From the IMG/VR virus record IMGVR_UViG_3300021962_000209, positions 1-43,154 of that record: 43,154 nucleotides of DNA; one strand, written 5' to 3'. Both the position numbers and the translations under genes were made by a program. The notes beneath the pieces were generated by a model that searched no databases, was not told the origin of the DNA, and saw nothing but the letters and a program-made list of their open reading frames with translations. This DNA is from a virus. Shown piece by piece: positions 3,530 through 26,958 of this stretch (the first letter of the stretch is position 1; each line of letters opens with the position of its first letter).

Positions 3530-3925
3530 TTAATGAACTATTTTTAGCGTATCACCAGTGCGATACACTTGTCCAACAGTGAGTCCGCCTAATAATGCAG
3601 CAGCGTTATCAGCGTATACAGGAGCTCCTGTGGTGGGAATGGTGAGCACAAGTTTCCAGTCAGCAGCTCCCAGTCCTGTTGTAGCAGCATGGAAGAGCTT
3701 GGGGAAAGGAGTTGTGTTTACATAAAGCTGTCCTACATAGACAGCACTGTTTGTAGGTCCTGTCACCCCTGTAACAGGAACAAGATTAGCATCAATTTTT
3801 TGGAGTGCAACTTCCAGAGAATCAAGGGGTTGTATATCTGTATTAGGCAGATATTCTCCATTGTAAAGAATACATAAAGCATTCTCATACGTAGCACATG
3901 TGGGGCAAATAGCAGCGGTTCTCAT
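3530..3925 (-). CDS. Small virion-associated protein with shared N-terminal docking module, 131 aa
   Basis: Begins with a C-P-x-C leader, followed at residues 18-50 by the module shared with the collagen-like, collar and 103-residue proteins (ILYNGEYLPNTDIQPLDSLE, then QKID). The C-terminal half is a different small domain that ends YADNAAALLGGLTVGQVYRT...KIVH, a tail segment I recognise from hypothetical phage structural proteins. The ATG at 3925 is chosen over an in-frame TTG at 3934 because it is the first ATG and sits just after a candidate promoter. It opens the fibre group that continues with the collagen-like gene 21 bp downstream. Function is not known; a minor decoration or fibre-adaptor protein is the best inference. 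Confidence 0.75.
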   Translation of the reverse strand: MRTAAICPTCATYENALCILYNGEYLPNTDIQPLDSLEVALQKIDANLVPVTGVTGPTNSAVYVGQLYVNTTPFPKLFHAATTGLGAADWKLVLTIPTTGAPVYADNAAALLGGLTVGQVYRTGDTLKIVH

Positions 3926-3931
3926 AGTGAG

Positions 3932-3962
3932 CAAAGTTAGTTAATTAGTATTAATATTCAAT
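3932..3962 (-). promoter_or_regulatory. Candidate Bacteroidota-type promoter for the fibre genes
   Basis: On the minus strand, ATTG (3962-3959) is followed by exactly 19 bases and then TAACTTTG (3939-3932). This fits the TTTG-N19-21-TAnnTTTG promoter described for Bacteroides primary sigma factor. The -7 box lies only 6 bases before the ATG at 3925, so the transcript would be nearly leaderless. The region is AT-rich, so a chance match is possible. Confidence 0.4.
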
Positions 3963-6900: not shown

Positions 6901-9082
6901 CAGCTTCCATCTCTTTTGTATACACCAGGTCAGCCACTAAGTCATCTATTCCACCAAACACTTCTGCTAAAGCTAGATACTCTCTCATGTCATCAGAAAA
7001 CTCAGATAGTTCTTTGTTCTCAGAATCTTCTGACAGAGCTGGTCTATCCTTGTAAATAGTGTTATAATCATTTAGGATTTGCTCACCTTGTTTTTTCATC
7101 AGGGTGATGAGGTCTACAAGAGGAGCAATGTTCATAGCTGTTTGAGCAGCACGGATGGATTGTTTTAAGGCATTAAGACGATCACTCTTAAACTCACGTT
7201 CATCCTCATCTGTCACCACCTTTTTAGAAATCTGTCTGTACACAGCATTTAACATACCTAGAAGTCTGTCTAGGTTTTTATATCCTGTAGACTCAGTTTC
7301 TTCTGATACAGGCACCAAACGAAGGTCTTCTATCTCTGCTGTGTTTACAGAACCTATTGCTATTCCAGTCATAATAATGGGAGAGTTTTCCACCTTTGGA
7401 TTTTCTTTCTTCACATCCATTAAAATAGGAATAGCTCTGTTTAATCCAAACTCTTTTATCCCATAGTTGTCACGCAGGATTTCCTTATATCTAGTGAGCT
7501 GGATGTTGTAAGCTCCTTGCTTATACCAGGTGACATCCTTTGCACCCTTAGCTAGGCTCATAAACTTCCAGTCAAAGATGTTAGCCTTACCATTTTCTTC
7601 TAAAATTAGAAGGTCAACAGTACCAGCCTCTTTCTCTTTATTATCAAATATAAACACCTCAGAGAACACCAGTGGATTCTTACCATCTTTTGTAAAGCTA
7701 GCTATGAGGTCAGTGTAATACTTCTCTAGCTTTTGGTACACCTCTTCATCAACAGGATCAAGTCTTTCAAAGCGTTCTCCAGGAACATCTCTTCTTGTAC
7801 CATCCTCATTGAAATATCTAAGGTGGATGTCTTCAAAGAACTTGTGTCCTTTAACACCCTGTTGTCTTTTAAACTCGTTAAACTTCTTCTCTTCTTCTGT
7901 AAACACCTTATCCCCAAAACGTTGCTTATACCAAGCTTTTACACGGTCTGTCACCCTTTTAAGTACACGAGACCATGAACCATCAGGCTGTTTTATTTCG
8001 TAATAGTTATTAGCTTCTTCTGTATCAAGTAGTAGAGGGTCAGCAGTTTCCTTAGTTTCCACCACCTTTTTCAGGTTGTCTTTTGTCTGTAACAAGCTTT
8101 GCTGTACATCCTTTTGAATATCAGAGAGTTGGAAATAGATTTCACCCTCTGTCATATCAATCATATTCCCTTCCACCTCACCAGCCATGATTTTAGCAGC
8201 TGTGTCTTGGAACAAAGAGATGTCAGATTTCAAATACAAACCTCTAATAAACTGTAATATCTTAGCCCAGAAGTTTGCCACTAAAGACCTGTTCTCTTCT
8301 TTCAACAGCTCAGGGAACATCTCTTCATTAGTTCCACCATTTATAATGAGCTCAGTAATTAGCTTATCTACAGCCTCTTTCTTTATTTTACGGATGTTAG
8401 GCTTACCATCAGCTGTCTGGTAGTTCTTATTGTTTCTATACTGGTCTAATGTGTATTTGTATATCTTGAATCTATCAATCTTAGATATCATTTCGTTGAT
8501 GAGCTGTGGGTTGGTTTGCTCCACCATCTGTGTAGCAATGTGTACAAGTTCTTCTACAATTGCTACATCCTCTTTACCCTCAGCAATAGCTATCACCTTT
8601 CTCATAGCATCTGCCACACCATTCACACCCTTTACATCAATGCCTGTTTGTTTAGAATAGGTGCTAAGATCGGTGATAGATATACCCATTTGTGCAGCAA
8701 GCTTTTTCACCTTCTCAGTGAGCTCTTTAGGAATAGGAGCAATAGGAATAACAGGCTCTTGGTTATAGATGTCTATGGGAGCATCTCCATCATAAAGGTC
8801 ATTTATATCATCTTCTGATAATCCAGTGGTTTGGAAGTTGTCATGCTTTTTCTGAAGCTCTTCAAACATTTCCTCGTTAGGAATAGCTTTCACCCTATCA
8901 TTGATTAGCCTTTCTGTAGTGAATAGTTTACCACTATTTTTCACTCCATACTTATTTCTGGCTAAGTCAGATAGTTTATTGTTCTCAAAGAAGAACATGG
9001 CATTTGTGACAAACATATTGTCATCAATATATCCTTTCTTCTTTAAGTGGTTAATTGCGTTTATTTGAACGTTACAAGCCAT
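3998..9082 (-). CDS. Giant virion cargo-type protein with degenerate zincin segment and PD-(D/E)XK nuclease domain, 1,694 aa
   Basis: Probably a packaged protein ejected with the genome, judged by its place directly after the polymerase protein. Residues about 160-320 look like a zincin domain that has lost its active site: E177-E178-L-V-H181 stands where HExxH would be, with later helices paralleling those of the real zincin in the neighbouring giant protein. Residues about 400-560 hold a PD-(D/E)XK nuclease pattern: E475, D490 (GTVD), D504-W-K506, then a conserved-looking Q...Y...Q-L-T-R-Y helix. The remainder is mostly charged helical sequence. Near the C-terminus a hydrophobic stretch (LSLLGAMMALGFV) precedes a run of five Asp and may insert in a membrane. 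Starts at ATG 9082, 12 bp after the preceding stop. Nuclease activity and target are inferred. Confidence 0.75.
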   Translation of the reverse strand: MACNVQINAINHLKKKGYIDDNMFVTNAMFFFENNKLSDLARNKYGVKNSGKLFTTERLINDRVKAIPNEEMFEELQKKHDNFQTTGLSEDDINDLYDGDAPIDIYNQEPVIPIAPIPKELTEKVKKLAAQMGISITDLSTYSKQTGIDVKGVNGVADAMRKVIAIAEGKEDVAIVEELVHIATQMVEQTNPQLINEMISKIDRFKIYKYTLDQYRNNKNYQTADGKPNIRKIKKEAVDKLITELIINGGTNEEMFPELLKEENRSLVANFWAKILQFIRGLYLKSDISLFQDTAAKIMAGEVEGNMIDMTEGEIYFQLSDIQKDVQQSLLQTKDNLKKVVETKETADPLLLDTEEANNYYEIKQPDGSWSRVLKRVTDRVKAWYKQRFGDKVFTEEEKKFNEFKRQQGVKGHKFFEDIHLRYFNEDGTRRDVPGERFERLDPVDEEVYQKLEKYYTDLIASFTKDGKNPLVFSEVFIFDNKEKEAGTVDLLILEENGKANIFDWKFMSLAKGAKDVTWYKQGAYNIQLTRYKEILRDNYGIKEFGLNRAIPILMDVKKENPKVENSPIIMTGIAIGSVNTAEIEDLRLVPVSEETESTGYKNLDRLLGMLNAVYRQISKKVVTDEDEREFKSDRLNALKQSIRAAQTAMNIAPLVDLITLMKKQGEQILNDYNTIYKDRPALSEDSENKELSEFSDDMREYLALAEVFGGIDDLVADLVYTKEMEADATTDEAKQDVQFRKDLLEQISTQARSIRLSRADIKEASQKFADKHIGQRNLVSGLLSAEAVIKGLSSTFRGISELPLASLQILYKLVTNAKGRASRDAIGEVDELMAIRKRIVDRGGDTRKFVQKIYQRDKENNLVNKLVYKFRREFYTKLDEMASTGQGDIAWVKNNVDVAAYKAEADKMLTNRIARIEKLYDDNPALLDKLIEEEKQKYDLDFPGFNGWNNPILKRHPKTDWYTEEYKEILKDSELNDLYNFITKMNQKAKESGYISNRVASTFLPFVRKSMAESLAWDFSLSAISNWKDALDIKADDVGYGKVNELTGELENAIPKYYSYDFTKTESGVNDYSDVSEDVFKNMILYINHMEKYKYLSEVEGQLNLVKTIETFKSHLNTNRTGDVVFVNGKPEELKGNEENTKMFNDFLRALLYEQKYPLSDSDTPLGIGKVTNFVKTAINRVAGREIFKPEENPSATSLVKTMDAANRAFQLKALGLEFVSGAVNAFGSNIQIATQAGTYFNAREVGANELKLVGNKFKNDEERDMFLQLIDTFLPLKDDPNYEKLKAAGLTRLTRSSFSDFLMVFMREPEQHMEKSIFLTLLDNMMVENGKIVSINEFVKNKYKDRYASAAKYREVAPKIKQEIEELKKTRSISATKKLEDGKLVIPGLDLTNNTEIQRLTNLTRRISRNATGGLSDSDVNRMSMNVWTRSMMVFKNWIPKLVDTRFGEFRKVSDDFSVEIDEKGQTTGEKYDIGRIRLWAYVVGTSLRDMNSNIYNILSLNDKGLAVLDKMYEDFSTTYEKRTGKPLEMDRDQFIDLIRTNLRNQMKEFAIGLSLLGAMMALGFVAPDDDDDKADKNFHRYAQRVVDRFISELSFFYNPVEFQKILSGSAFPALGIFSDASRFGSHFIMETTGVDTSNPDLTMDEVRKKAQPVKNLAKMFPVTKSLITYMAILDSEFAKEYDVTIQKETRR

Positions 9083-9094
9083 TAAATATTAGTT

Positions 9095-12000
9095 TTAGCA
9101 TGTGAATGGGTCTGCACCTTGAATATCACTAATGTCATATACATAAAGTTTTCCCCTACCATTTATCCAATCTCTAACCATTTGATAGGAAAGTTCTTCA
9201 GCAGAGGTAACACCTTCTGACTGTAGCATAGCTTCTTTACCACCAGCTTCATCAACAGTGAGTAAACCTCTATTAGTAACCATATATTCTTTATTACCAA
9301 TTCTTCTTATCTCACTTTGACCAACAGGGATATTAATTCTTTCACTTTCTGATGTAGATCTTACAGTGGTAGTTTTCAATCCCTGTTCAATCTTTTCCAC
9401 ATTCTGAGGTTGCATTGTAATACCCTTCACACGTGTGCCTGTACCTCTTTGTGTTGTTCTACTAGGCTTCTTTTCAAACTCAGAGATTATGGCATTATCA
9501 TCTATACCATCTGTCTTAATAAAGCCATTATTAATATCAGATGTATGTTCTACATCCCAAAACTCGTTAGCTCTATATCCATCACCCCATGCATTTACAG
9601 CCTTGTAGATGAAATACTTTCCACCGTTCTTATCATTGTGCAACAAAGGATTACCAAAGTTGTCATACACCTTCTTGAATAGTCCCTTCTGAATGAATGA
9701 ATAGTCACCCTCTTTACGCATCTGGGCTTTCTTCTTAGCTGCTGTAAGTCCATCAGCTTTCTCTTGTTCTGTTAGAAGCTCAGCAGCTCCCTTTTCCCAT
9801 CTGTAAACAATATAATCATATCTACCTTCAGATCTATAGATGGATCTAGAAACCACTGGAGGGATGGTTCCTTTTTCTACAGCCTCTCTTACAGGCTTAG
9901 GAAGGAACTTCATGGATGGGTTGTATACAGGACCAGCTGCAGTTTCTATAGTGTTAGCCATTACATATGGTACAATATCATCATTGTTCCAGTTGTTTCT
10001 TTGGAACACTCCCATTGTTTGGAAGTTTTCCAGATTGGGTATAGCCTCTAGTCTAGACAGGGTTTGGTTGTAGATTCTCTCAAAGTCTTCATATGGAAGA
10101 ACAGAGGTGAATGATATAGGTGATGAAGATAGACCGCTTTGTAAAATAGCAAGAGATACTAGTCTGTCATACAGAGGGCTCTTGTCTTTAAAATAATCCC
10201 TAAGCTCACGGAAAGCATAGATGATGTTATTTTGGTCGTAGGTTCTATTATCCATTCCCTTCACCTTCAAGTTGTTAGGAAGGTTTTGTCCCACTTTTTT
10301 GGATGGATCACCTGATACAATATTAACAACATAGTTGTTATGTAGAGGATGGGAAGGATTTGCTTTTACATCATTTACAAATGACAGCATCTCTGTAGCC
10401 ACCCCACCATCGTTTAAAAGAATCTCTTGAATCTCAAGATTTAGATTTTGGTCTATCTGTACAGCATAGTCAAATAAGTCATTCACTGCCTTACGAGCAA
10501 GCTTTACAAACTCTCTGTCAGACATAGAGGTTGCATAAGGAGCAATTATACCATGAATAATTGCTCTCACTCTAGGCTTGTCAGAGAGAAGCAGTTGTGC
10601 AAATGCATTTCTTGTGTCCTTCATTATTTCAGCTAGCTCTCCTATAAATGCATTTTCCATAAGCTCTTCAACAGAAGAGATGATGGTGTTTTGAGCTTTC
10701 TGAAGCTGTATCTCTTTCTTTAACACCAGATAGGGATCATTTAGTGTTGCTGTATCCCAGTTAGTTCCTTGTGTAACATGGAACAGGTGTTCAGCCATTT
10801 TAGCATATTTCAAGAACTCCTTTAGAATAATAGCTTGTTCAAGTTTTTCATCCTTGCTCATTTGTCTTGTAGGCATTCCTACATTTCTTTTAAGCACTGC
10901 TTTGGAAGGAATAGTTCCTTCGTTTAGTTGCTGCATGATGGCATCATGTTCCTCTTTAGTTGTGGCTTTAGGAAGATAGCTTTCCATCACATCATTATAG
11001 ATGCCATCATTAAACACGTAAGAATATCCAGCGTTCTCAATGCTACGAAGATAGTTACGGACGGATGTTTGGTTCATGAAATAAGAAACAGTGTCAATAG
11101 GCACACCAATCTTAACCAGGAACAACCATGTGCTAGCCACGTTTGGTGTAGCACCAAGTTCCATAATCCATGGGCCCTTAGAGATGTCCACATATCCATC
11201 AATAAACTGACCAATGATATCAGAGATGTCTTTCCCATCAGCATTCTGAATGCCAGAGAGCATAGCCACACTACCCTTTCCTTCTACATCAATAGAGTTG
11301 TATTTATCAAACTTAATGGTGCCATCACCCAACCAGAACTGATCTGCAAGAGGAAGGTTCTCCAATCTATTGCGATCAATATATATAAGCTGACGCTGGT
11401 TCAAAGAGTGGTTGGTTTGAGCCACAGCTGCAATACCAATAGCATATTTACCTCTTACAAAGGCATGACGCAATCTTGACATGAATGTTCTATCAAGCAT
11501 GTTTCCAGGATCATTATAGTCAAAGGTACCACCTGTTGTTTTATTAGCTACAAATCTTGCCAAGTCTTTTAACTGTTCTGCAGAGTTGGGAGAAGTGAGT
11601 CTTATAAAGTTGGCCTTAGTTTCTACAAGGTTTTGGAAAGAGTCAATGTATTGATTCTCAAGGCTTTTCTTATAGAGGTTGTTTATAATCTGGTCTCTCA
11701 CCTTTATACCTCTAGTGAAGTCACGCACTATTTCTTCTACAGAGAATAGCTGTCCTACGCCCATAAGCTTCTTCATAAGCTGAGCAGTATTAGACTCATC
11801 ATTCATGAAGTCTTCAGCAGCAATCAGCTCTTCATCAATATATCTATTTAATTGCTTCTCTTGCTCTTTTGAAAGGAACTCTCCTTTGTCAAACATTTCT
11901 CCTAGCTTCTCAATAGCTTCTTGCTTATTAGCAAAAGAAGGAACAAGCTTTGGCTTACCATCTTTAACATATACGTTCTTCAGATAGATGGAAAGTTTAT

Positions 12001-15000
12001 CTATGTCAAAGTCAGATCCCACTTTCTTTACAATCTCTGAAGGAACCACCACACTATCTCCCATTCCTTTAGGAAGGAACTTTGCAATACGGAATGATTC
12101 AATAGAATTTTGTTTCTGTGTGGGTATACGGAAAGCTACACCAGCTAGAGCTGCAAGTTGTTTCTTACCCTCTTCAGTGTTATTGAAATAATCCATCAAC
12201 TGATCATCTGTGAGATCACTGTCAAACCATCTAGCCACCATTATCTCACAATAACGCTTACCATCTTCACCCTCATAAAACTTAAGCAGGTCAGAGGTGT
12301 AAGCCATCTTACCATTTATCTCTGTTGGTTTTATACGATTGGATTCAAACAGGGATGAAGGGATTTGCACCTTCAAGCCACCATTCACCTTAGGAGATAC
12401 AATGTTCTTATCAGCTATTGAATATAGAATGTTTCTAATCTGTTGGTAGGCAGGGGTGGCTTCTAGCACAGCTTTACCTTCCAAGAATCCCTGAAGGGCA
12501 TCACTGATGTTATCATTCACCTCTCTTTTTAAGATTTCACTACGTAGGGTGGCAACAGCTTTATCTTTGTTTTCCACCTCAAACCTCTTTTTAGTGACAT
12601 CATCTACATCCTTGAAGGTTATCTCTTTTATACCAAGTCTGTCTAATGTGTTTAGATATCCTTCTTTTGTAAGTTCTTCTAGGAGCTTTTGGTTTCTTTT
12701 TATCTCAGCATAGATGGTAGATCTATTTTCTCTTTCTTCCTCAGAAGCTAAACTCATCCAGGCTTTGTAGCGTTGGTCAATTGTTTTGCTTGGGAAGAAG
12801 TCAACAGGTACACCTGCTTCCAGGAGGTCCATTGTTACCAGCTTAGTGGGCTGGCTACCTCTAGTTACTAGATTGTCTTCTTTAGAAGGCACCTCAGATT
12901 GTACGCTCATGATGGAGAATGGCACATTAGTGATGATTTCACTCTTGCTATCATTGAACTCACCATTCTCATTGTACACATCTTGTGCACCTACAGATCC
13001 CACCTTTCTACCACTGTTAAACACCACATAATCAATGTCTTCCTCATCCATCTTCTCATCTAGTTTTAATAGATTAGCGTCAGGATTGAGTTCCTTGATG
13101 AGGCGATAGGATAGAACATACAAGGCAAACTTGTCTAGCACTATCTCATTATAGGGCTGTCCATTTGCTTTGTTACCAGATACAATAGGTTTGAGGTTTA
13201 CATATGCACTTTGTACATTAGGATTGCCCTCTCTTAATATTCTTTCTTCATCAGAGCTTAAACCTAGTCCTTTATCTCTTTTCTTCCAAGCCATGTCATA
13301 TTTATACTGACGCTCCTCATCACTATTCCATTTACCAGCTCTGATTCTGAAGTTACGATTGGCTTTCATATTGATGATACCAGCACCATCTGTTTCATCA
13401 TACACTCCATAGTTTAACAATTTGTTGTATGCCTGAACATCTTTATAAGGAACTGTACGGAAATAGTCTCTTGTAAAGTTGGTGTATGCTACATCTCCAG
13501 GACTATATCCCTTATTCCACACAGAATTGTATACACCATTCATTGTGGGGGAATTATTAACAATAGCCTGACGAGGGGAGTTGAAACTCTTTGTACGTTT
13601 TAGCTCCTCTTTGTATTGGTAGGGATCTCCATATGCTAGCTTGTGAAGCTCAATATTAGCAATAATGTAATTAATGCTAAGCATGTCAATGTGCCTGTTG
13701 TAATCATTTTCATTCATCACTCTAGGTAAGCTGAGACCATTTGTTTCAATACCCACTGATGTAGATTTTGCAACTCCATAACTATCAAGTAGTTCTTTGG
13801 TGTTTGCAGATCTTCCATCAATGAAGGCATCAATAGCAGCTCTAATTCTTTGTCCATAATCTTCCCCATCAAACATTGCTTCAGGGGCACTAGTGGTGTC
13901 AGCAACAATCTCATCATGTAAACTTTCTCCTAGAATAGACTTAAAGAAGCGAAGGTCTGTACGCTTTCTATCTCCTAGCTTTACAAAAGGACGATTGGGA
14001 TCTCTACCCACCTTCATCTCAGAAATAAAATAGTCTCTGAAAATATTATACACATCTCCTCTTCCTCTAGATAGGGAAGTGAGAGATATGACATTTCCCA
14101 TCTTAAGCATCCATTCTAGAGAAGCATCTCCAGGTACAAGGTTTAGATAGTAGCCTGCTAAGTTGAGATTGATTTCCTGTGCAACACGTTCTTTATAAGT
14201 GAGTTGTGCAGATTCTTTGTTTCTTCCGTTTTGCTCATTCAAGGTGCCACCAACATATCCCACCCTCATTATTTGGTCTTTTCTAGCATCAGACTTAGGT
14301 AGTCCATCACTAGCAAAGAGCTGTTTAATCATAACAGATCCCTGAGTGAAATCATCACTAAGTAGGTATTCATATTGTGTACCAGCCAAACTATCTTTAT
14401 CTAGTCTCTTGAGCTGAGATAGGAAGTTGTATAGGTCATACACAGCGTTAGGGCCTAAGAAGGATTGTACACGCTCACCGCTGAGGTTGAAATAGGTGCT
14501 GTCAAACTGTGGGTTAGAAATCTTAGCCTTGAATAGAGCAAGCTCTAATAAACGGTTGCTAATATCTAGTGACTTACCAGAGAACGTAGCAATCTTTCTA
14601 CCCTCAATAATACTCTTCTTAATACCCTGTACAGACTCTCTAAACTCTTGTAAGTCATTAGGACTTAGTGATTGTATTTCTTTGGTGCTAAATGATATGC
14701 CCATTTCCTCTAGGAAGTTGGATAGCTCAGCAGGAGTTTCTGTTCTCTTACCTCTTGCCTTTGCAACATCTCCTACAAATACATTACTCTTAGTGTCATA
14801 TTTGAAATAGCCCTTACCATTCTTAGCATATTGAGTGATGCTATCAATGTAGTCAGCTCTAAGTTGAACAGCTGCATTAGATAGGTTAGCATCCCCAACC
14901 ACCACTGTACCATCTTCTAGAATAAATACATTCTTCACCTCAGGGTCTTGCTTCTTAAAGGTTTGCCAGAAACCTCCTATAAGCTGAGAAGCAGCTTCTG

Positions 15001-18000
15001 TATTTACATTACTAAAGTTTAACCCAGGAATATCCCATGGTGACTTAGTGAGTCTCTTATATAAAACTCTGTAGTTGCGATCATTAGCAGCCATTACACG
15101 TAGTTTCTCTAGCATATCTTCTATGCTAATAGCATCATGAACATTGTTCATTACGCTAATATATGTTTGGCTGATGGGTAGCAGTTGTGTACCACCAATA
15201 GAAGAAGGAACAGGTTTACCATTTGCATCAACAATAGGAATGGTGGCAAGCAGAAGCTTAATAGCTCCATTAGCTTTTCTAAATCCATCTATTTTCTCAG
15301 CAGAAGCAAAGTCACTTTCTTTAATCTTATTCTCATCAGTTCTTTGCATGTCATCATTCTCATCAAATGTGATGGAATAAGCATTTAGATATTCCTCATG
15401 ACGCTTAACTATATCATCCCATTGATTATCAATGTGTTGCATCAACTCTGTTGTAGAGGTGATGATGGGATCAACGTTCTCTTGTGTGCGCAGTCCTTGT
15501 TTTACAAACTCTTGAGCTACATCAATCTTTCTACCCACCTTCTGTAATAGCTGGGTTTTGATGGTGTCATACAACTCCTTCCTATTTATTTTAGGTATGG
15601 AGAATAGTCCCTCATCTGTATTGATAAAGTTTCCAAGAGTGAGATAGGTCATCTCATTAATAATCTCAGACCTTTGTTTGTCAGTGATGCCCACTAAGCT
15701 AAACTCACTATCTGATGTAGCAAATGCATCCTCTATATCAATCACACCCTCTTTAGCATAAGCTAGAGAGGCGTAATTAGGAGAGTAGTTTTTGTAATAT
15801 CCATTACCTATTTTCTTAAATAGTTCCTCAGTATTAGTGGCTGCTTTAGGACCAACAAAGAATTCCTTAATAAACTTCACTAGGTCAGCAAACAGCTTTA
15901 CAATAAAAGGTCTACCATCTTTAGGTTTAGCAGGAATCTTACCCTCTTGTACATAATCTCTGAACTCTTCAGCCAGCTTTTCTTCAAGCTGGTCATCTGT
16001 AGCCTCAGAATATTTAACATCTTGTCTAGACTTTTTATCAAAGAATGAACCACCTCTTTTTCTAAGTTCATTCATAACTGCCTCACGCTCAGCACTATCT
16101 GCAAACATTCTCCATACAGCATGGAACACCTCATGGTAGGCTGTACCCACCTCAGCATTTGTGTATATATAGATGGCTCCATCTCTGTACATACCCCATG
16201 CTTGTCTACCATTAGTGGCTTGAATAACATTCTTTACACGGTAGACAGGAATGTTAGGGAGGTTAGCCTTTATAAATGCTTCCACCTTATTCCAATCCTC
16301 ACGCTGATATTGATCTATCTCACTTCCAATCATCTCACGTAAAGCCTCATCATTTGTATCTGCTAGCCTGATGTTGATAGCATCCATCACATTATCATTG
16401 ATGGGCTGTCCTAAGTTCTGGGAAGCAGCTTGAATAGCAGGAGCTGTTCCACCAATCACCACAGGAGCCATCTCTATTTTGATTCTATCAAGCTCAGGGG
16501 CTATAGCATTGAATATGATTTTCTTAAGCTCTATCTCTGGGTTCTTTCCAGCTCTCTCCATTATTCCAGCCACCTCAGCATAGTCACCACTTTGCGTTCC
16601 CAGAATAATCTTCTGGTTGATGGTTTCCATTGTGACATCTTCTGGAGCTTTGAAATTAATCACCTTACCACCAGGAGATACATATTTGTTGATGGTTCTA
16701 CCATCAAGAATATATGTAGGAGCAGGAGGTGCTGTTGGTGCAGCTTGAGGAGCTGTGGGAGCAGGAGCTGCATTTCTTTGTACACCAGCAGCTGTAATCA
16801 CAGTGGATGATATAGGTGTTGCAGGTTTAGCTGGTTTAGGAATAACAAAGTCATCAGCTGTATCTGCTGTATAGAAATAGATGCCCATTCTATTCATTAC
16901 ATCATCACTAGTCTTAGGCACCATAGGTGTTGATAGAGGTAGGTCTTCACCACTTCTCTTACCACCATTTGGGTTCTTATTAGACAGCAGATAGGTTTGA
17001 TAGTTGGGCCATATTCTACTTTCTACAGATCCATCCTCAGCAACAGAGGTGATCTCTTCGTAGGGTTCATTTAAATTCTTGGCTATAGAAGAGTTGATGT
17101 TGTTGTACATCTTTTGTAGCTGCTCTATAATAGCAGCTTTGTTCTCTTCTAGTCCTATAGGTGTCATGGAGAAGTCCTTACCAGCTTCTTTCAAACTAAG
17201 CATTAGTCTTCTTCCTGTACCATCTTTCTCCCAGAACACACTGTTATATCCAGCAGGTTTTCTTACACCAGCTTGTGTGGTGGGAATACCCCAATAAACA
17301 ATAGACCTTAACCAGGTGAGTAGACGTACAGATTTATCTGATGTCACCCATTCATCTACATTCTGCATGTTCTTAGACAGTTGCAGAAGTGCTTGGTAGA
17401 TGGTCTCAGCTTCTTTCTTTGTTAGATTGCGGTTTCTTAGCTTTACCAGTCCATTAGGGAGATTGAGGAATGGTTTACCCATTGGGTTACTAAAGCTAAC
17501 AGTGCCCTTAGTTTGTTTCTCATTATCTTTTGGAATGAAAATAAGAGGGTCTCTTTCTAGCTGTGCTGCTGTAATAAGTCCAGCATCCTCTACAGATGTC
17601 TTAGTGTTCCAATCTGTATTACCATCAGCATCTTTAACGTATAAAGGAATACCAAATGAAGCACCTATAGTGTGACGCTCATTTAGATTGGGATTAGCAA
17701 TCACTCCATTTCTCCACTCTTTATATTGCTTTGTAACAGCTTCTATTACATTATCAGGAGTGCCCTCTCTGAACATGCTCTTTCCACCAAACTCCTCACT
17801 CCATGTAAGGCTAGCTGTGGGGAACACTTGATATATAGCACTATTTAATTTATCAGAACCTTCAGGTAGAGGATTACCATCCACTCCTACAAGGTTACCA
17901 GCATCATCCACCATTACAAGAGTAATGATGTCATCTTTGCTAATTGTTTCATCAATGTTTCCCTGAACATCCAATCTTAAATGTTCTGTTAGTCCAGGGA

Positions 18001-20959
18001 TGAGTTGGTCCTCATTCTTTGAGGTGACATACACCCCACGAATATTTTTTCTATTTGGAAGACTTTCTAAATCAAGACCAAATTTATTAGCTCTCATCTG
18101 ATGAGGCTTTCCTCTCATTACACCAGCTGTAGCACGTGGAAGGATTTCTGTAGACTTCTTAGGATCAGCCTCATAGGTTTTAACAAACTCTGCAGTTTGT
18201 ACAGTTTCTCTATCCTGTGTATTAAGAGCCTGGTCAATCACCTTTGCATTACGCATTGCTTTTTGTTCCTGCTCTCTTTGCTCTACAAGCTTTTGAGATA
18301 GCTTATCAAACTCAGTTTCCACCTCATCCATTAACTCACTGTTATTCAATGAGTTAACAAAGTCAATAGGAGATGTGTTTTCAGGCACCTTTACATCTGT
18401 GTGTTTCTTTCTACTAAGAACATTGTTAATAGCGTTCTCAAGTGTTTTATTTAGTTCATCTACACCTATAGGCGCATCTGACAAATCAAATTGTTTGAAC
18501 TCTTGAGGAGTGAGATATTCTATATTACCATTTGGCATTAACACCTCAAATTCTCCACCTAAGGTTTGGGAGAGCACACGTAGCTTTGGAGCCACTTGTA
18601 TAGTGTTTCCTTGTCTTGAGAATGGCTTTTTGAGATAGTAGTCCTCACCCACCTCTAATTTCTTAGTGATGATTTTACCAGGTTTGTTAGGATCTACTTG
18701 TTCTACACTAACAGCTAGTTCTTCTGTAGATCCAAAAGGGAATGCTTTCTTATCGTAAAAATCTTTAGGATTGTTCTTGATGGTGTCATATTCTTGCAAG
18801 AACTGATTCCTATCCAAGCTCATATCAATGATGTCTATTAAATTTTGCTTCAAATCGCTCTTAACATCAGAAAGCACATTCATATCATTGATGGCATCTA
18901 TTGCTTTACTAGTGGCTTCTTTGTTTGGTTTTTTATCCACTACAATGCTGTCAATTATATCATTGACATTCACACCACGCAGATTCAACTGGTCAGCTAG
19001 CTTTGGAATACGTGTGTCATAATCAGCCACCTTTGTAGCTGCATACACCATTTGATCCATTACAGCAGGAGTGTATACAAGGTTTCCTTCCTTGTTCACA
19101 ATACTACCATAGCGAAGATTGAGAGATTGATAAAGGGATTTTACATTGTCTGCAGTTTTCTCTAGGTTGAGAATTCTTTGCATATAGGCTTCTCTACTAT
19201 CTGTAGGAAGAGCCTTTCCTTCTGCTTGCAATTGTGCAAATCCTTCAGGAGTGGCAGCTAGTTGTTTGTAGTCTGCTATATCTTGCATCACCAAATCATA
19301 CCTACCATATTTGATTCTAGGAGATAGGTAGTTGATGATGTAGTCTGTTTCCTTATCCTTACTTCCTTTAACATCACCCTTCTTCAGCAGTTCTTCTCTT
19401 TCTTGCTGAAGAACAGTTCCACGGTTGACAGAATCAATAGTTTCTTTTGTGAAATCAGAAAGTTCGTATCTATTGAATGCTTGGATAGCATCTGCTGTAT
19501 TTCTGCTCTTAGCAGCGTTTTCAACATATCTACCTCTAGCTTGCATAAGGGCTCCAGACAATCCACCAATTAGGACATTCTCCATACCCTCGTTTGTACC
19601 AAGGGTTTCTGTAATACCCTCACTCAAAGACTCAAGCCATGATGTAGCTTGTCCTCTGTATTTCTTATTGTAATAGTCTTGTGTAGTTTTAGTGATGGCA
19701 AACTGAGCACCTTCTTCAAATGCTTCTGAAGCAGAGAATGTATAAGGTCTTATCTTATCTAGCGTGGATACAAGTTTTCCTCCTGTGGTGGTGATAGCCT
19801 TTTCAGCATATCTACCAGTGGCATCTTTTGCTACATCTCTAATCTCTCTAGTGAGAGAGTTGATGATTCCTTTCTCACCTGTGTATGTAGAACCTAATAT
19901 TTTAGGAAACTGTATATAGTTGGTTACAGAAAGTAAACCCACATTAGTTAAGAATGAGGAGTTACCCACATTATCAGCTAATGCATTAATCTTTTCAAGA
20001 TCAGCACCTTTAGGATCTAGTCCATTATTCTCTTCTCTATACTTCTGTATTAGATTATCTCTGTATTCATTGAGATTGTGGTAGGCTTCAAAACCAGCCT
20101 CACCTGTTGTAGCAAGTCCTGCTACAAGTGCTCTTCCTCCAGGGTTGAGAAGATTGTAAGAAGATAGAAACTTATCAGAAAGTGATCTCACCTTCCCATA
20201 TGTTTCAGCCACTTTATTAGCAGCAAGCAGTCCTTGTTCTGTAGCAGCCAAAGTTTCAGCAGCTTTACCTACAGAAAACAAACGTGCTGTAAGAGGGAGG
20301 GCTTTTAGTCCAGCTGTAAATACACCTCCTGATAGAGCAGCACCTGCTGCAAATCCCATATTCTTAACTATACCATTCCAGAAGAAGTTGGCTGTAAATA
20401 GTTTATCAGGAGAATACCAACTAGCGTTCTTTTCAACATCTGTATAATAGTTGGGAAGAACATTCTCAGCAGCTTTGTTTATTTCATCTAGTCTTCTGTT
20501 AAAACCATTGTCATAGAAAGAAGCTGCTCTTCCATCTCCAATAGCACGAACCATTCCATTTAATAGTCCAAATGTAGATTGTAGAAGAGTGGTGCCTGTT
20601 AAGAGCAAACCCTTACCAACACTATTCACCATCTTAGAAGTCCATCCCTGTCCCTGTGCATATGCATCTTCGTTATTATAATCTCCAGGAATGAAGAAGT
20701 TGTAACGATTGGAAGTGAGCTCTGATAAAGGGCGTGGGATAGATCCACCTGTCATCTTACCATCAGATCCTGTTTTACTAAGAAGATAGTTCTCTAAAGA
20801 TGTGAGGGCAGATGGGGCAGGTTCTGTACTCTCAGAAGGCATTCCAAGAGCAGGGGACCTATAGGCAATGTTAGGTAGGCTAGACATATCCCTTTCAGGA
20901 TTATATCCACCAAACTGTTTCTCCAGTTCAAGTCTGTCTAATAAGGGTGTATCAGGCAT
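9095..20959 (-). CDS. Giant virion protein: zincin-like metalloprotease + crAss-type single-chain RNA polymerase + ASCH-like C-terminus, 3,954 aa
   Basis: The largest gene here. The N-terminal 1,000 residues are helical, with glycine- and alanine-rich hydrophobic segments near 115-140 and 195-230. An Ala/Pro linker lies near 1,390-1,410. H1609-E-V-F-H1613 in the context TAYHEVFHAVW, followed by E-K-L-A-E-E-F-R near 1,655, is a gluzincin-type metalloprotease signature. R2944-I-P-T...S-I-x-x-F...F-L-P precedes D2983-F-D-I-D2987; this matches the RAPTLHR...NADFDGD catalytic block of multisubunit RNA polymerase beta-prime and the DFDID form in crAss-like virion polymerases. The last 100 residues (QNVEKIEQGLKTTTVRS) resemble an ASCH domain. 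In relatives the polymerase is packaged and transcribes early genes after ejection. ATG 20959 is preferred over the TTG before it. The protease may process this protein or the other cargo; that is inference. Confidence 0.85.
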   Translation of the reverse strand: MPDTPLLDRLELEKQFGGYNPERDMSSLPNIAYRSPALGMPSESTEPAPSALTSLENYLLSKTGSDGKMTGGSIPRPLSELTSNRYNFFIPGDYNNEDAYAQGQGWTSKMVNSVGKGLLLTGTTLLQSTFGLLNGMVRAIGDGRAASFYDNGFNRRLDEINKAAENVLPNYYTDVEKNASWYSPDKLFTANFFWNGIVKNMGFAAGAALSGGVFTAGLKALPLTARLFSVGKAAETLAATEQGLLAANKVAETYGKVRSLSDKFLSSYNLLNPGGRALVAGLATTGEAGFEAYHNLNEYRDNLIQKYREENNGLDPKGADLEKINALADNVGNSSFLTNVGLLSVTNYIQFPKILGSTYTGEKGIINSLTREIRDVAKDATGRYAEKAITTTGGKLVSTLDKIRPYTFSASEAFEEGAQFAITKTTQDYYNKKYRGQATSWLESLSEGITETLGTNEGMENVLIGGLSGALMQARGRYVENAAKSRNTADAIQAFNRYELSDFTKETIDSVNRGTVLQQEREELLKKGDVKGSKDKETDYIINYLSPRIKYGRYDLVMQDIADYKQLAATPEGFAQLQAEGKALPTDSREAYMQRILNLEKTADNVKSLYQSLNLRYGSIVNKEGNLVYTPAVMDQMVYAATKVADYDTRIPKLADQLNLRGVNVNDIIDSIVVDKKPNKEATSKAIDAINDMNVLSDVKSDLKQNLIDIIDMSLDRNQFLQEYDTIKNNPKDFYDKKAFPFGSTEELAVSVEQVDPNKPGKIITKKLEVGEDYYLKKPFSRQGNTIQVAPKLRVLSQTLGGEFEVLMPNGNIEYLTPQEFKQFDLSDAPIGVDELNKTLENAINNVLSRKKHTDVKVPENTSPIDFVNSLNNSELMDEVETEFDKLSQKLVEQREQEQKAMRNAKVIDQALNTQDRETVQTAEFVKTYEADPKKSTEILPRATAGVMRGKPHQMRANKFGLDLESLPNRKNIRGVYVTSKNEDQLIPGLTEHLRLDVQGNIDETISKDDIITLVMVDDAGNLVGVDGNPLPEGSDKLNSAIYQVFPTASLTWSEEFGGKSMFREGTPDNVIEAVTKQYKEWRNGVIANPNLNERHTIGASFGIPLYVKDADGNTDWNTKTSVEDAGLITAAQLERDPLIFIPKDNEKQTKGTVSFSNPMGKPFLNLPNGLVKLRNRNLTKKEAETIYQALLQLSKNMQNVDEWVTSDKSVRLLTWLRSIVYWGIPTTQAGVRKPAGYNSVFWEKDGTGRRLMLSLKEAGKDFSMTPIGLEENKAAIIEQLQKMYNNINSSIAKNLNEPYEEITSVAEDGSVESRIWPNYQTYLLSNKNPNGGKRSGEDLPLSTPMVPKTSDDVMNRMGIYFYTADTADDFVIPKPAKPATPISSTVITAAGVQRNAAPAPTAPQAAPTAPPAPTYILDGRTINKYVSPGGKVINFKAPEDVTMETINQKIILGTQSGDYAEVAGIMERAGKNPEIELKKIIFNAIAPELDRIKIEMAPVVIGGTAPAIQAASQNLGQPINDNVMDAINIRLADTNDEALREMIGSEIDQYQREDWNKVEAFIKANLPNIPVYRVKNVIQATNGRQAWGMYRDGAIYIYTNAEVGTAYHEVFHAVWRMFADSAEREAVMNELRKRGGSFFDKKSRQDVKYSEATDDQLEEKLAEEFRDYVQEGKIPAKPKDGRPFIVKLFADLVKFIKEFFVGPKAATNTEELFKKIGNGYYKNYSPNYASLAYAKEGVIDIEDAFATSDSEFSLVGITDKQRSEIINEMTYLTLGNFINTDEGLFSIPKINRKELYDTIKTQLLQKVGRKIDVAQEFVKQGLRTQENVDPIITSTTELMQHIDNQWDDIVKRHEEYLNAYSITFDENDDMQRTDENKIKESDFASAEKIDGFRKANGAIKLLLATIPIVDANGKPVPSSIGGTQLLPISQTYISVMNNVHDAISIEDMLEKLRVMAANDRNYRVLYKRLTKSPWDIPGLNFSNVNTEAASQLIGGFWQTFKKQDPEVKNVFILEDGTVVVGDANLSNAAVQLRADYIDSITQYAKNGKGYFKYDTKSNVFVGDVAKARGKRTETPAELSNFLEEMGISFSTKEIQSLSPNDLQEFRESVQGIKKSIIEGRKIATFSGKSLDISNRLLELALFKAKISNPQFDSTYFNLSGERVQSFLGPNAVYDLYNFLSQLKRLDKDSLAGTQYEYLLSDDFTQGSVMIKQLFASDGLPKSDARKDQIMRVGYVGGTLNEQNGRNKESAQLTYKERVAQEINLNLAGYYLNLVPGDASLEWMLKMGNVISLTSLSRGRGDVYNIFRDYFISEMKVGRDPNRPFVKLGDRKRTDLRFFKSILGESLHDEIVADTTSAPEAMFDGEDYGQRIRAAIDAFIDGRSANTKELLDSYGVAKSTSVGIETNGLSLPRVMNENDYNRHIDMLSINYIIANIELHKLAYGDPYQYKEELKRTKSFNSPRQAIVNNSPTMNGVYNSVWNKGYSPGDVAYTNFTRDYFRTVPYKDVQAYNKLLNYGVYDETDGAGIINMKANRNFRIRAGKWNSDEERQYKYDMAWKKRDKGLGLSSDEERILREGNPNVQSAYVNLKPIVSGNKANGQPYNEIVLDKFALYVLSYRLIKELNPDANLLKLDEKMDEEDIDYVVFNSGRKVGSVGAQDVYNENGEFNDSKSEIITNVPFSIMSVQSEVPSKEDNLVTRGSQPTKLVTMDLLEAGVPVDFFPSKTIDQRYKAWMSLASEEERENRSTIYAEIKRNQKLLEELTKEGYLNTLDRLGIKEITFKDVDDVTKKRFEVENKDKAVATLRSEILKREVNDNISDALQGFLEGKAVLEATPAYQQIRNILYSIADKNIVSPKVNGGLKVQIPSSLFESNRIKPTEINGKMAYTSDLLKFYEGEDGKRYCEIMVARWFDSDLTDDQLMDYFNNTEEGKKQLAALAGVAFRIPTQKQNSIESFRIAKFLPKGMGDSVVVPSEIVKKVGSDFDIDKLSIYLKNVYVKDGKPKLVPSFANKQEAIEKLGEMFDKGEFLSKEQEKQLNRYIDEELIAAEDFMNDESNTAQLMKKLMGVGQLFSVEEIVRDFTRGIKVRDQIINNLYKKSLENQYIDSFQNLVETKANFIRLTSPNSAEQLKDLARFVANKTTGGTFDYNDPGNMLDRTFMSRLRHAFVRGKYAIGIAAVAQTNHSLNQRQLIYIDRNRLENLPLADQFWLGDGTIKFDKYNSIDVEGKGSVAMLSGIQNADGKDISDIIGQFIDGYVDISKGPWIMELGATPNVASTWLFLVKIGVPIDTVSYFMNQTSVRNYLRSIENAGYSYVFNDGIYNDVMESYLPKATTKEEHDAIMQQLNEGTIPSKAVLKRNVGMPTRQMSKDEKLEQAIILKEFLKYAKMAEHLFHVTQGTNWDTATLNDPYLVLKKEIQLQKAQNTIISSVEELMENAFIGELAEIMKDTRNAFAQLLLSDKPRVRAIIHGIIAPYATSMSDREFVKLARKAVNDLFDYAVQIDQNLNLEIQEILLNDGGVATEMLSFVNDVKANPSHPLHNNYVVNIVSGDPSKKVGQNLPNNLKVKGMDNRTYDQNNIIYAFRELRDYFKDKSPLYDRLVSLAILQSGLSSSPISFTSVLPYEDFERIYNQTLSRLEAIPNLENFQTMGVFQRNNWNNDDIVPYVMANTIETAAGPVYNPSMKFLPKPVREAVEKGTIPPVVSRSIYRSEGRYDYIVYRWEKGAAELLTEQEKADGLTAAKKKAQMRKEGDYSFIQKGLFKKVYDNFGNPLLHNDKNGGKYFIYKAVNAWGDGYRANEFWDVEHTSDINNGFIKTDGIDDNAIISEFEKKPSRTTQRGTGTRVKGITMQPQNVEKIEQGLKTTTVRSTSESERINIPVGQSEIRRIGNKEYMVTNRGLLTVDEAGGKEAMLQSEGVTSAEELSYQMVRDWINGRGKLYVYDISDIQGADPFTC

Positions 20960-20970
20960 CAATAATCCGT

Positions 20971-23541
20971 TTAAGGTATTTTAGAAGCTTCCTTCATAAG
21001 TTTTAACTCTGCAGCTGTAGGAGGTCTTTCGTTGATTAGTTCAAATATAGCAGCATCATTTAAGCTGCCCATAGCAGCTGCAAGCTTTTCTTTTTGCATA
21101 AGTCCTCCACGAGGATAGGAAACATCATTCACCCATTGTTTTCTTAGAGGATCAAACACTGCAAGTTTATACCCATACAGTCCTCCAGATTGTATAATGT
21201 TTCCCTTCACACCATAAATATCAATACTAGGAAAATCTATAGATGATAGATAGGAATTATTAGCATTAGTGGGACCAGGAGCAGTGGCAGTGCTCACTCC
21301 TCCAGTTTTTGAAAGTTGTGAAAGATAGGGTTGTACAGCTTTCACTTCTGGAGCAGATTCAAAAGCAGCATTCCCAAAATAATTCACCTTGATTTCAGGG
21401 GTTATTTTGAACTTCATACTTTTTCCATCCTTTCCTGAAACAGTCACTTCATATAAAGCAGGCTGTAACTCAGTGCCTTCTATAACACGAATCACTCCAG
21501 ATAGAGAAGGATCTGCTGCCAACTCTCTAGCTTTTTGTGATGTAAACTCTGGAGAGTTAGCTAGTCCTCCTGGTACATCAGCATTAGTGGCTAAACCACC
21601 AAGAAGAGTGACAAGCTGTTGTCTAAGCTCAGGCTTATAAGAATCAATACCATATGACATTGCTTGAGAACCTTGCATTCTATTTAGCAATATTTCATTA
21701 GCTCTAATAACCCTTTCGTTTAATTTAGCCTGGTAAGGAAGATTTACTTTCTCTTTATAGAAGCCTAGGTTTTGTCTCATACCAAGTTCTCCACTATCTA
21801 GCTTTCCACCTTGTGATTCTTTCTTTAAAATATTATACAACAAAAGCTCTTTACCATTTAAATTTTGTTGAGCCTTTTCATCATCAAATAGGTTACTACC
21901 TGTTGTTCCCATAGTGGCAGATCCACCACTACCCACTCTTATTAGAAATTCTGGATACTTCTGGTTAAACTGCACTAGCTCTTGTGGTGTGAATGAATAT
22001 CCCTTGTATGTAACAGTGGGAGATCCTGGAGGAATTAAACTTTCTATTTTTCCTTTTTCAGCATCCACTTGATTATAGATGTTACCAAGAAGAGCCTCAT
22101 TAGATTTTATAAGTCTTGTAAGGTTTTCTGTAGCAACAAAGTGTTGAGCAAGTACAGGATCTACACCTTTAGGATTTCTTTCCCAAGCAGCTTTTTGATC
22201 TGCTAGCCATGTAACATCCTTGCCCATATATTCAGGGCGATTTAAAAGAGAAGCTTCATCATTTACTAATTGTTTCTTATCAGTTTCAATTAGTTTCACT
22301 AAATTAGTCATGTTGTAGGTTCCAATCTCCTCAGTGGTAGCTCCTCCTGCAACACCTCCTTTTCCTCCAATACCAAGCTTTGATTGTTCTATTTCAAGCT
22401 TTGCTCTTTCTATTGCCATCTTTTCTCCATGCTGTCTATTTTCCTCTTCATACTTCTCTTTGTCAAAAGTTAGTCTATCTCTAAACTGTTGAGCAGCAAC
22501 ATATGGACTATTCTCATATGTTTTGGAAGTTTCTGTAAAGCTGAAGGCGCTAGCAAAGTTGTTTAAGTTGTTGATTGTCTGTAGTCTAGATTTTGCAGAT
22601 TCTACATCTCCACTAGCAAATGATTTAGAAACACCAGAATATTCTTCTTTAGTTCTTTCAATCATTTTTTTCAACATGTCAATTTTACCATCTATCTCAG
22701 TTTTCTGAGCAGTGGATTGAGTTTGGTATTTAGAAGCATCAAGAGTTTTTATTTGACTCATATACTTCTCCACCTTCTCACTATACTGACTGTTTATATC
22801 ATTTACAAACTGTTCAGGGGTAACATTAGAATAGTTGTATCTACCATCTATTTCCATTTGCTTAAATGCATTAGGAGATAGTCCCACTAGTAAAGCCTGT
22901 TGTAAACGCTCAGGAGAAATACCTTCTAGCTTCTGTCTTGTAATAGCATCTGTTATTGTAAGGTTGCCTTTATTATCCACTCTAAAAGCATCATCTGTTA
23001 TAGTGGAATCTTTTGTAAGAGCTTTTAATACATCAACAGCTTCCTTTCTCCAATTGGTGTATGGTGTGAACCTGCCATTAAAAGAAACATTTAAGTCATT
23101 GCTATTCAACCACTTAGAAGCTTGGTCTCTAAAATCCCATTCATTTGATGTACCAGATTTACCCTCTTTTCTAGCTGCATCTATTTCTTCTAAACTCTTT
23201 CTATAGAGCTTTGTAGAGGATACAGCATTTAGAATGTAAGGGTCTTTGGTTAACTGTGTCACCATCCCCCCTACAGAATTAACTAGTTGGAAGTTAGAGA
23301 AGTCTCCACTAGCCACATTTCTTAGGTTGTTACCAAGCTGGTTAAACTTTGATTGTAGATAGGCCTTATCAACAGGTCTAGCCACCTCTAATCCAGAAAG
23401 ACTGTCCAAATAGGTTTGTATCCTTTGGACACCTTCCTCATAGCGCTTTTGTTTTTCCATGCCCACTTGGACCATGGCTTCCACAGGAAGCTGGTCAATG
23501 TAGGGGTTAAACTTGGGTATTATGTCTGTATAAGAAGCCAT
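20971..23541 (-). CDS. crAss-like virion cargo/structural protein, 856 aa
   Basis: The N-terminus (PKFNPYIDQLPVEAMVQVGM, then KQKRYEEGVQRIQ) is a recognisable signature of an internal virion protein family in crAss-like and flavobacterial phages. Residues about 1-450 are mostly predicted helix, with a Glu/Lys/Arg-rich coiled-coil stretch near 365-400 and earlier near 265-310. A Gly-rich break (GIGGKGGVAGGATTEE) near 395-410 separates a second half that is more mixed and contains beta-like segments near 690-800. No enzyme motif was found. It sits immediately before the polymerase giant (11-bp gap) and after an 86-bp gap that holds a candidate promoter. By context it is a cargo or tail-barrel protein packaged next to the polymerase; the precise role is unknown. 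Confidence 0.75.
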   Translation of the reverse strand: MASYTDIIPKFNPYIDQLPVEAMVQVGMEKQKRYEEGVQRIQTYLDSLSGLEVARPVDKAYLQSKFNQLGNNLRNVASGDFSNFQLVNSVGGMVTQLTKDPYILNAVSSTKLYRKSLEEIDAARKEGKSGTSNEWDFRDQASKWLNSNDLNVSFNGRFTPYTNWRKEAVDVLKALTKDSTITDDAFRVDNKGNLTITDAITRQKLEGISPERLQQALLVGLSPNAFKQMEIDGRYNYSNVTPEQFVNDINSQYSEKVEKYMSQIKTLDASKYQTQSTAQKTEIDGKIDMLKKMIERTKEEYSGVSKSFASGDVESAKSRLQTINNLNNFASAFSFTETSKTYENSPYVAAQQFRDRLTFDKEKYEEENRQHGEKMAIERAKLEIEQSKLGIGGKGGVAGGATTEEIGTYNMTNLVKLIETDKKQLVNDEASLLNRPEYMGKDVTWLADQKAAWERNPKGVDPVLAQHFVATENLTRLIKSNEALLGNIYNQVDAEKGKIESLIPPGSPTVTYKGYSFTPQELVQFNQKYPEFLIRVGSGGSATMGTTGSNLFDDEKAQQNLNGKELLLYNILKKESQGGKLDSGELGMRQNLGFYKEKVNLPYQAKLNERVIRANEILLNRMQGSQAMSYGIDSYKPELRQQLVTLLGGLATNADVPGGLANSPEFTSQKARELAADPSLSGVIRVIEGTELQPALYEVTVSGKDGKSMKFKITPEIKVNYFGNAAFESAPEVKAVQPYLSQLSKTGGVSTATAPGPTNANNSYLSSIDFPSIDIYGVKGNIIQSGGLYGYKLAVFDPLRKQWVNDVSYPRGGLMQKEKLAAAMGSLNDAAIFELINERPPTAAELKLMKEASKIP

Positions 23542-23555
23542 AGCGCATTAAGTTA

Positions 23556-23586
23556 CAAATGTAATATGAAAAATTATATCTTCCAA
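23556..23586 (-). promoter_or_regulatory. Candidate Bacteroidota-type promoter before the 856-aa gene
   Basis: Minus-strand TTG (23586-23584) is followed by 20 bases and TACATTTG (23563-23556), 14 bases before the ATG at 23541. The -7 box is inside a perfect 12-base palindrome, TTACAAATGTAA. The surrounding 86-bp gap is one of the few breaks in an otherwise closely packed gene group. The element is AT-rich and unproven. Confidence 0.35.
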
Positions 23587-23614
23587 GAGGAATAACGAAT
23601 TTTGGTAAATCACT

Positions 23615-23627
23615 CTAACTGAGTTAG
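23615..23627. other. 13-base perfect dyad next to the 1,109-aa gene stop
   Basis: CTAACT-g-AGTTAG lies directly after the stop codon of the upstream gene. No U-run follows on the minus strand. It could be a weak RNA hairpin or a protein-binding dyad; the sequence alone cannot say which. Confidence 0.3.
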
Positions 23628-26957: not shown

Positions 26958-26958
26958 G

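Follow-up and report, generated by a model that had tools for sequence, protein, structure and literature searches.

The locus considered here is most closely related to the large cargo proteins of crAss-like phages, among them gp47, gp50 and gp49 of PhicrAss001. All three have been found in virions by mass spectrometry, in a study that set reduced virions beside untreated ones, and all three were left unresolved by cryo-EM of the particle (PMC10172136). They are encoded by separate genes on two strands, and gp47 ends in a zincin with the motif HEAFH. In phi14:2, the source of the solved polymerase (gp66, PDB 6VR4), the polymerase is likewise a separate protein, of 2,180 amino acids, and its gp47-like neighbour, g067, has no HExxH. 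Fusions of these units are also known. Suoliviridae cr50_1, cr118_1, cr1_1, cr52_1 and cr4_1 have one-chain proteins of 4,464-4,946 amino acids (4,774 for cr50_1 gp59, 4,946 for cr118_1 and 4,551 for cr1_1), in which an HEAxH zincin is followed by DFDxD and after which comes a gp49-like gene. In the Intestiviridae LMMB (MT006214) and crAss002 it is the other joint, gp50-gp49, that is fused, with the zincin staying with gp47; GenBank already names the zincin there, the cargo block of LMMB including both an 'RNAP associated protein/zincin protease fusion protein' and an 'RNAP catalytic subunit/RNAP subunit fusion protein'. Published crAss polymerases reach about 6,000 amino acids (PMC10136315; PMC7886860). 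The virion RNA polymerase of phage N4 (gp50, 3,500 amino acids) is also a giant ejected polymerase with an HExxH domain and no cysteine (PMC12633501, PMC5512222), but it is a T7-like single-subunit enzyme of unrelated fold that makes up a single car, with no terminal cysteine. How hundreds of kDa of enzyme are sent in order through a channel narrower than 50 Å is an open question (PMC10172136, PMC12633501).

The giant cargo protein and its neighbours

The window, by which we mean the whole 43-kb virus record analysed (43,154 nucleotides), has a crAss-like gene order: an IHF-like protein (38317), tail proteins (37336), a large structural protein of 1,822 amino acids (31861), three cysteine-free proteins (20971-30987), the giant protein, a protein of 1,694 amino acids and tail-fibre genes. 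A place behind genes of these kinds (IHF, tail tubular, large structural, cargo) is where a crAss-like virion RNA polymerase is expected. The giant is encoded on the minus strand (9095-20959) by a single open frame that runs from an ATG through 3,954 codons to a stop, with zero internal stops, as an earlier note made from the sequence had described it, and since an identical protein (100%) occurs in a second IMG/VR assembly (L001, a 71-kb contig), the length of the frame is not due to an assembly error. The motif positions given in that note are exact: HEVFH at aa 1609-1613 (16121-16135) and the catalytic motif DFDID at aa 2983-2987 (11999-12013) lie in this one frame, and the conserved block ahead of the latter begins 39 residues before it, with RIPT at aa 2944-2947 (12119-12130). 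No relative was found by DNA searches of phage records and genome contigs, nor did tblastn match the neighbouring 1,694-aa protein to anything in phages; scans with crAss001 gp50, cr50_1 gp59 and crAss002 gp33 returned few loci.

A virion RNA polymerase core related to gp50 and gp66 occupies about aa 2271-3470 (10550-14149). A phmmer search of the PDB matched a single entry, 6VR4 (E=3e-15; aa 2808-3302 of the giant), and placed GSDFDIDK of the giant on GSDFDIDK of the solved enzyme; a 17-sequence family profile matched 6VR4 at E=1e-26, and an AF2 model of aa 2330-3430, of moderate confidence (mean pLDDT 66), had 6VR4 as its sole significant PDB match (E=2e-18, TMq 0.44). DFD-D is invariant among the family members aligned. 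Residues 658-1655 of phi14:2 g066 align with aa 2271-3301 of the giant, and crAss001 gp50 aligns with aa 2500-3337. The polymerase is thus of the type known from crAss-like virions, as had been proposed; an N4-type, T7-like single-subunit polymerase was also considered and was rejected, the giant matching 6VR4 only.

The N-terminal region is gp47-like (aa 86-529, 19373-20704; phrog_32390, E=1e-22), with homology to about aa 740: crAss001 gp47 aligns with aa 104-738 (E=2e-32), and its zincin (HEAFH), at the C end, gives a second alignment with aa 1488-1703. Judged by these alignments, the giant is a fusion of the gp47 unit, carrying its zincin at the C end, with the gp50 virion RNA polymerase of crAss-like phages, and the earlier reading of a crAss-type polymerase and a zincin in one chain is upheld. 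Because one-chain giants exist in Suoliviridae, at about 22% identity, and fusions are named in GenBank, the chain is a member of an architecture that is already known. By homology, the giant would be carried in the capsid and leave it together with the DNA, its polymerase transcribing early genes, as others have shown for the ejected polymerase of phi14:2.

Next to the giant on the minus strand lies the gene for the 1,694-aa protein (3998-9082), which is gp49-like (phrog_298, E=1e-5; cr108_1 gp52, E=1e-10; a weak match to crAss001 gp49) and contains a PD-(D/E)XK-like exonuclease region (aa 327-544) and a zincin-like EExxH motif (aa 177-181). On the other side, also on the minus strand, are the three proteins of 856, 1,109 and 1,342 amino acids (20971-30987), which have zero cysteines and are probably other ejected cargo; their counterparts in relatives likewise lack cysteine, with few exceptions. 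Part of the 1,109-aa protein is endolysin-like (phrog_894) and resembles a D-Ala-D-Ala peptidase. The virion proteins encoded at 31861-37329 and by nearby structural genes have long threonine runs (TTTTTTT), and these same structural and tail proteins are rich in cysteine (2-3%), in contrast to the adjoining cysteine-free cargo.

The ASCH-like signature that the note claimed for the chain found no profile support. What is present is a motif only, TMQPQNVEKI..G.KTTTVR (aa ~3845-3867), in a window-specific insertion (aa ~3840-3950, 9110-9442) that has no Pfam match up to E=10. Relatives lack this block, among them L116, whose C end is likewise DPFTC. The giant of L139 has, just ahead of its terminal DPFPC, an insertion of a different kind with the SLOG-like stretch TGGQTGFDEAG, placed as the ASCH-like block is in the window, and the two sequences suggest a swappable slot preceding the terminal cysteine.

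The zincin-like domain

The zincin-like domain spans about aa 1554-1700 (15860-16300). Across 23 aligned family members there is no variation at His1609, Glu1610 or, downstream, Glu1660. The AF2 model (mean pLDDT 66, core 80-94) runs from a helix through three strands to the HExxH helix, followed further on by a helix with Glu1660, which is the topology described for polyvalent-protein zincins by Iyer et al. 2017 (PMC5512222). Foldseek among viral models matched the domain to crAss-like giants and to one named polyvalent-protein domain; against the PDB there was no match by sequence or by fold. At the last position of the motif 60 of 81 giants have Glu (HExxE) and the other 21 His (HExxH), with no other residue in any of them, so that HExxH, although present in the window itself, is not conserved across the family as a polyvalent-protein zincin would require. 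In this mixture the clade of the window differs from the Suoliviridae giants, all of which have HExxH (some of these giants are recoded). A switch between His (CAT/CAC) and Glu (GAA/GAG) needs two base substitutions, no Gln or Asp intermediates occur, and switching took place at least 4, at least 7 and at least 10 times on three quick trees with long branches. The gp49-like proteins share a conserved EExxH at the position of an HExxH in cr1_1 and cr4_1; as read from the sequences, this is another zincin-like domain, in which Glu has taken the place of the first His.

Because only His or Glu occurs and the catalytic Glu is kept, this strict choice speaks for a retained metal site over decay; the same sequence pattern gives no support to an indispensable classic zinc protease. 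We put at only a little under even the chance that the domain is structural or metal-binding and no protease, with Glu able to stand in for the His ligand. The restriction of the second ligand to two residues through repeated two-base changes, at least ten on one tree, and the EExxH of the gp49-like neighbour speak for this; against it, the trees were quick ones with long branches, and the invariance of Glu1610 in both forms means that catalysis with an H/E/E site is possible. A structural zincin is compatible with the coupling of cargo proteins that is proposed below.

Cysteines at the ends of cargo proteins

All the giants have a cysteine at or close to their C end, as became apparent when that end was examined for ASCH. 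The giant of the window has two cysteines in 3,954 amino acids, one of which is its last residue (Cys3954, 9098-9100), and several relatives, each more than 4,000 residues long, have just one. In the neighbouring 1,694-aa protein Cys3 (9074-9076) is the sole cysteine. The codons of Cys3954 and Cys3, the upstream and downstream halves of the junction pair, lie 21 bases apart (9074-9100). Suoliviridae giants and the gp49-like gene beside them have such a terminal pair as well. In PhicrAss001, where nothing is fused, there are two pairs: the lone cysteine of gp47 (Cys2339) is 3 from its end, that of gp49 is at residue 5, and gp50 has, besides an internal cysteine, one close to either end (Cys5 and Cys2404). 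In phi14:2, g067 ends in a cysteine, g066 (2,180 residues) has cysteines at residues 3 and 2179 and no others, and g065 has one at residue 3. Each joint in the order gp47, gp50, gp49 thus has a cysteine on both sides, regardless of gene order or strand, the order of the units having been taken from fusions in other phages and not from cysteine positions.

Stated as a rule, where consecutive cargo proteins are encoded by separate genes there is a cysteine in the last 10 amino acids of the upstream protein and in the first 8 of the downstream one. Across 44 genomes with 54 junctions, this was so for the upstream cysteine in 54/54 and for the downstream cysteine in 54/54, while the outer ends of the trains had a cysteine in 0/88 cases and the inner cysteine content was 0.06%. 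Loci collected after the rule had been stated gave 56/56 junctions, and 58/58 with cr272_1 and cr109_1, which obey it in spite of stop-codon recoding; since the loci are related, the events counted are not independent and the Fisher value for the 54 junctions overstates the case, so that more weight falls on the contrasts of fission and fusion given below. The window follows the same pattern, with Cys3954 and Cys3 at its junction and none at the outer ends. Among ordinary proteins of these loci, 16% have a cysteine in the first 8 amino acids and 11% in the last 10. Chance or composition as the source of the terminal cysteines is rejected by this background, by the bare outer ends and by the later loci. 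In every train the number of C-end cysteines equals the number of N-end cysteines and tracks the number of gene breaks.

The counts include the trains of phi17:2 and Lbo-JY46, which were set by gene order partly after the cysteines had been seen and with gp37 (119 amino acids) skipped, and two starts placed downstream of the annotated or first ATG, by some 32 codons in crAss002_gp33 (supported by L059) and by some 11 codons in L017. They leave out the end cysteines of csAssE-Sib (2208/2208; 5 and 751/752), for which the third partner was not identified.

The sequences around the terminal cysteine are diverse (the last nine residues of 81 giants form 69 distinct strings), the cysteine is displaced by a few residues from one protein to another and both cysteine codons are used, which argues that the thiol itself is conserved; homology of the end sequences as the cause is rejected by the same diversity. 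Many giants share a G[YW]T..E stretch ahead of the terminal cysteine.

The number of cysteines changes where the number of chains does. In two loci, L007 and L033, the gp49-like gene is split in two and a new cysteine stands on either side of the break: the first piece has cysteines at both ends (4 and 519 of 525; 3 and 420 of 421, respectively), and the second piece has one at residue 3. The break in L033 (24310-25016) holds a gene for a GIY-YIG-like endonuclease; that in L007 lies at 24343-24351. In L032, which is 91% identical to L033 downstream of the break, the gene is unsplit and there is Cys3 only in 2,150 amino acids. Fused joints lack the pair, at gp50-gp49 in LMMB and crAss002, at gp47-gp50 in the clade of the window, and in Suoliviridae and FpV4. 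In cr108_1 a group I intron (Rfam RF00028, E=2e-18) interrupts the polymerase gene within DFDID and there is no cysteine at the split, in keeping with the fact that an intron breaks the gene and not the protein. L054 is broken at the same motif and likewise has no pair; its break and that of the cr116_1 polymerase gene, which has an extra ORF, are probably introns too, with no match for either in Rfam. Breaks within or just after the DFDID codons lie at 23375-23693 in L039, 19411-20509 in L054 and 17521-18362 in L064.

In N4, whose 3,500-aa polymerase is a single car, the polymerase and its two companions have zero cysteines, and avoidance of cysteine therefore fits ejected proteins in general; the end pairs would be an addition in phages with several large cars.

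Proposed coupling of the cargo and its alternatives

We consider it fairly probable that gp47, gp50 and gp49 form a cargo train joined either by fusion or by terminal cysteines. The three would be arranged head to tail and would enter the cell joined and in order. A joint would be made by gene fusion in some phages (gp47-gp50 in the window and in Suoliviridae, gp50-gp49 in Intestiviridae) and, where the genes are separate, by pairing of the C-end cysteine of the upstream protein with the N-end cysteine of the downstream one, the remainder of each chain being so nearly free of cysteine that only the right ends could pair. Pairing is the simplest reading of the C-end and N-end cysteines, because these are equal in number and follow the breaks. 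The chemistry is likely that of a disulfide, which would form in the virion and be reduced in the host cytoplasm, releasing the enzymes. Such a bond would keep the cargo ordered during threading and free the enzymes afterwards, and with cysteine avoided elsewhere, chains that have to unfold would not form wrong pairs. Inter-subunit disulfides are present in the tail and portal vertex of PhicrAss001 virions (PMC10172136). The fullest form of this proposal, in which capsids are loaded with a disulfide-joined covalent train that passes through the tail as a single polymer and is taken apart by the reducing conditions of the cytoplasm, fusion being interchangeable with cysteine coupling, seems to us an even bet.

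It is unlikely, by comparison, that the terminal cysteines are unpaired and that each anchors its own end to a virion part (portal, tail barrel or C1) or to a packaging factor. Anchoring would accord with the disulfides formed by the tail and portal-vertex proteins of PhicrAss001 (PMC10172136) and with the cysteine-rich tail proteins of the window, but it does not predict the gain of two cysteines on fission and the loss of two on fusion; the outer ends of the train never carry a cysteine, and the number of cysteines tracks gene breaks, recent ones included.

Paired end thiols might also join the chains by way of a shared metal ion, or lead to their ligation into one peptide chain, which we regard as quite improbable. 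Either would be expected to leave the same sequence pattern. The gut, moreover, is anoxic, which counts in favour of these routes and was counted against disulfide formation. One cysteine per side is, however, few for a metal site; native ligation needs the N-terminal residue, whereas the downstream cysteine is residue 3-6 after Met; and no intein-like motif was seen at the ends. The separation of PhicrAss001 gp47, gp49 and gp50 on a reducing SDS gel speaks against a peptide bond (PMC6235969).

The earlier note had raised the possibility that the zincin makes the giant cut itself or its neighbours after packaging. The domain does stand at the end of the gp47 unit, directly ahead of the fused polymerase, with its three key residues invariant and a zincin topology in the AF2 model, and Iyer et al. 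2017 proposed autoproteolysis by such polyvalent-protein zincins, the N4 polymerase included (PMC5512222). The zincin is, however, absent from the gp47 unit of three Steigviridae (phi14:2 g067, DAC15 gp78 and cr116_1 gp47), phi14:2 among them being the source of the solved polymerase, and the same domain ends a separate gp47 in phages that have no junction to cut. Reducing gels of PhicrAss001 virions gave bands that included 150, 270 and >300 kDa, with gp47, gp49 and gp50 identified as high-molecular-weight virion proteins (PMC6235969); the full-length masses are 262.5, 154.5 and 276.9 kDa, respectively (PMC10172136), so that the cargo bands are close to full-length sizes although the zincin of gp47 is intact (HEAFH). 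With HExxE in 60 of the 81 giants of the clade, and the N4 polymerase packaged unprocessed (PMC5512222), cleavage of the giant or its neighbours by the internal zincin, whether after packaging or in the host cell, is very unlikely; the giant is most likely not a self-cutting polyprotein, and the zincin may cut something else. A protein that cuts itself thus gives way to one that would be kept joined until it is inside the cell.

The cysteine rule is very regular and, to our knowledge, unreported; a literature search limited to open-access papers found none that mentions cargo cysteines. Cysteines at the joints without exception, in about a hundred related phages, and their near-absence elsewhere, point to a redox-switchable mechanical coupling, of which we found no description in that literature. 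Replacement of the bond by fusion would also suggest why giant polymerase fusions keep arising. The rule predicts, further, which phage proteins are ejected together. Terminal cysteines with no identified partner occur in cr8_1 gp90 (L061), FpV4 gp30 (L045) and crAss002 gp30 (L043), in proteins of 861 amino acids in LMMB (L042), 674 in Lbo (L068) and 1,088 in L009, and in the 752-aa protein of csAssE (L069); these virion-block proteins are perhaps further couplings.
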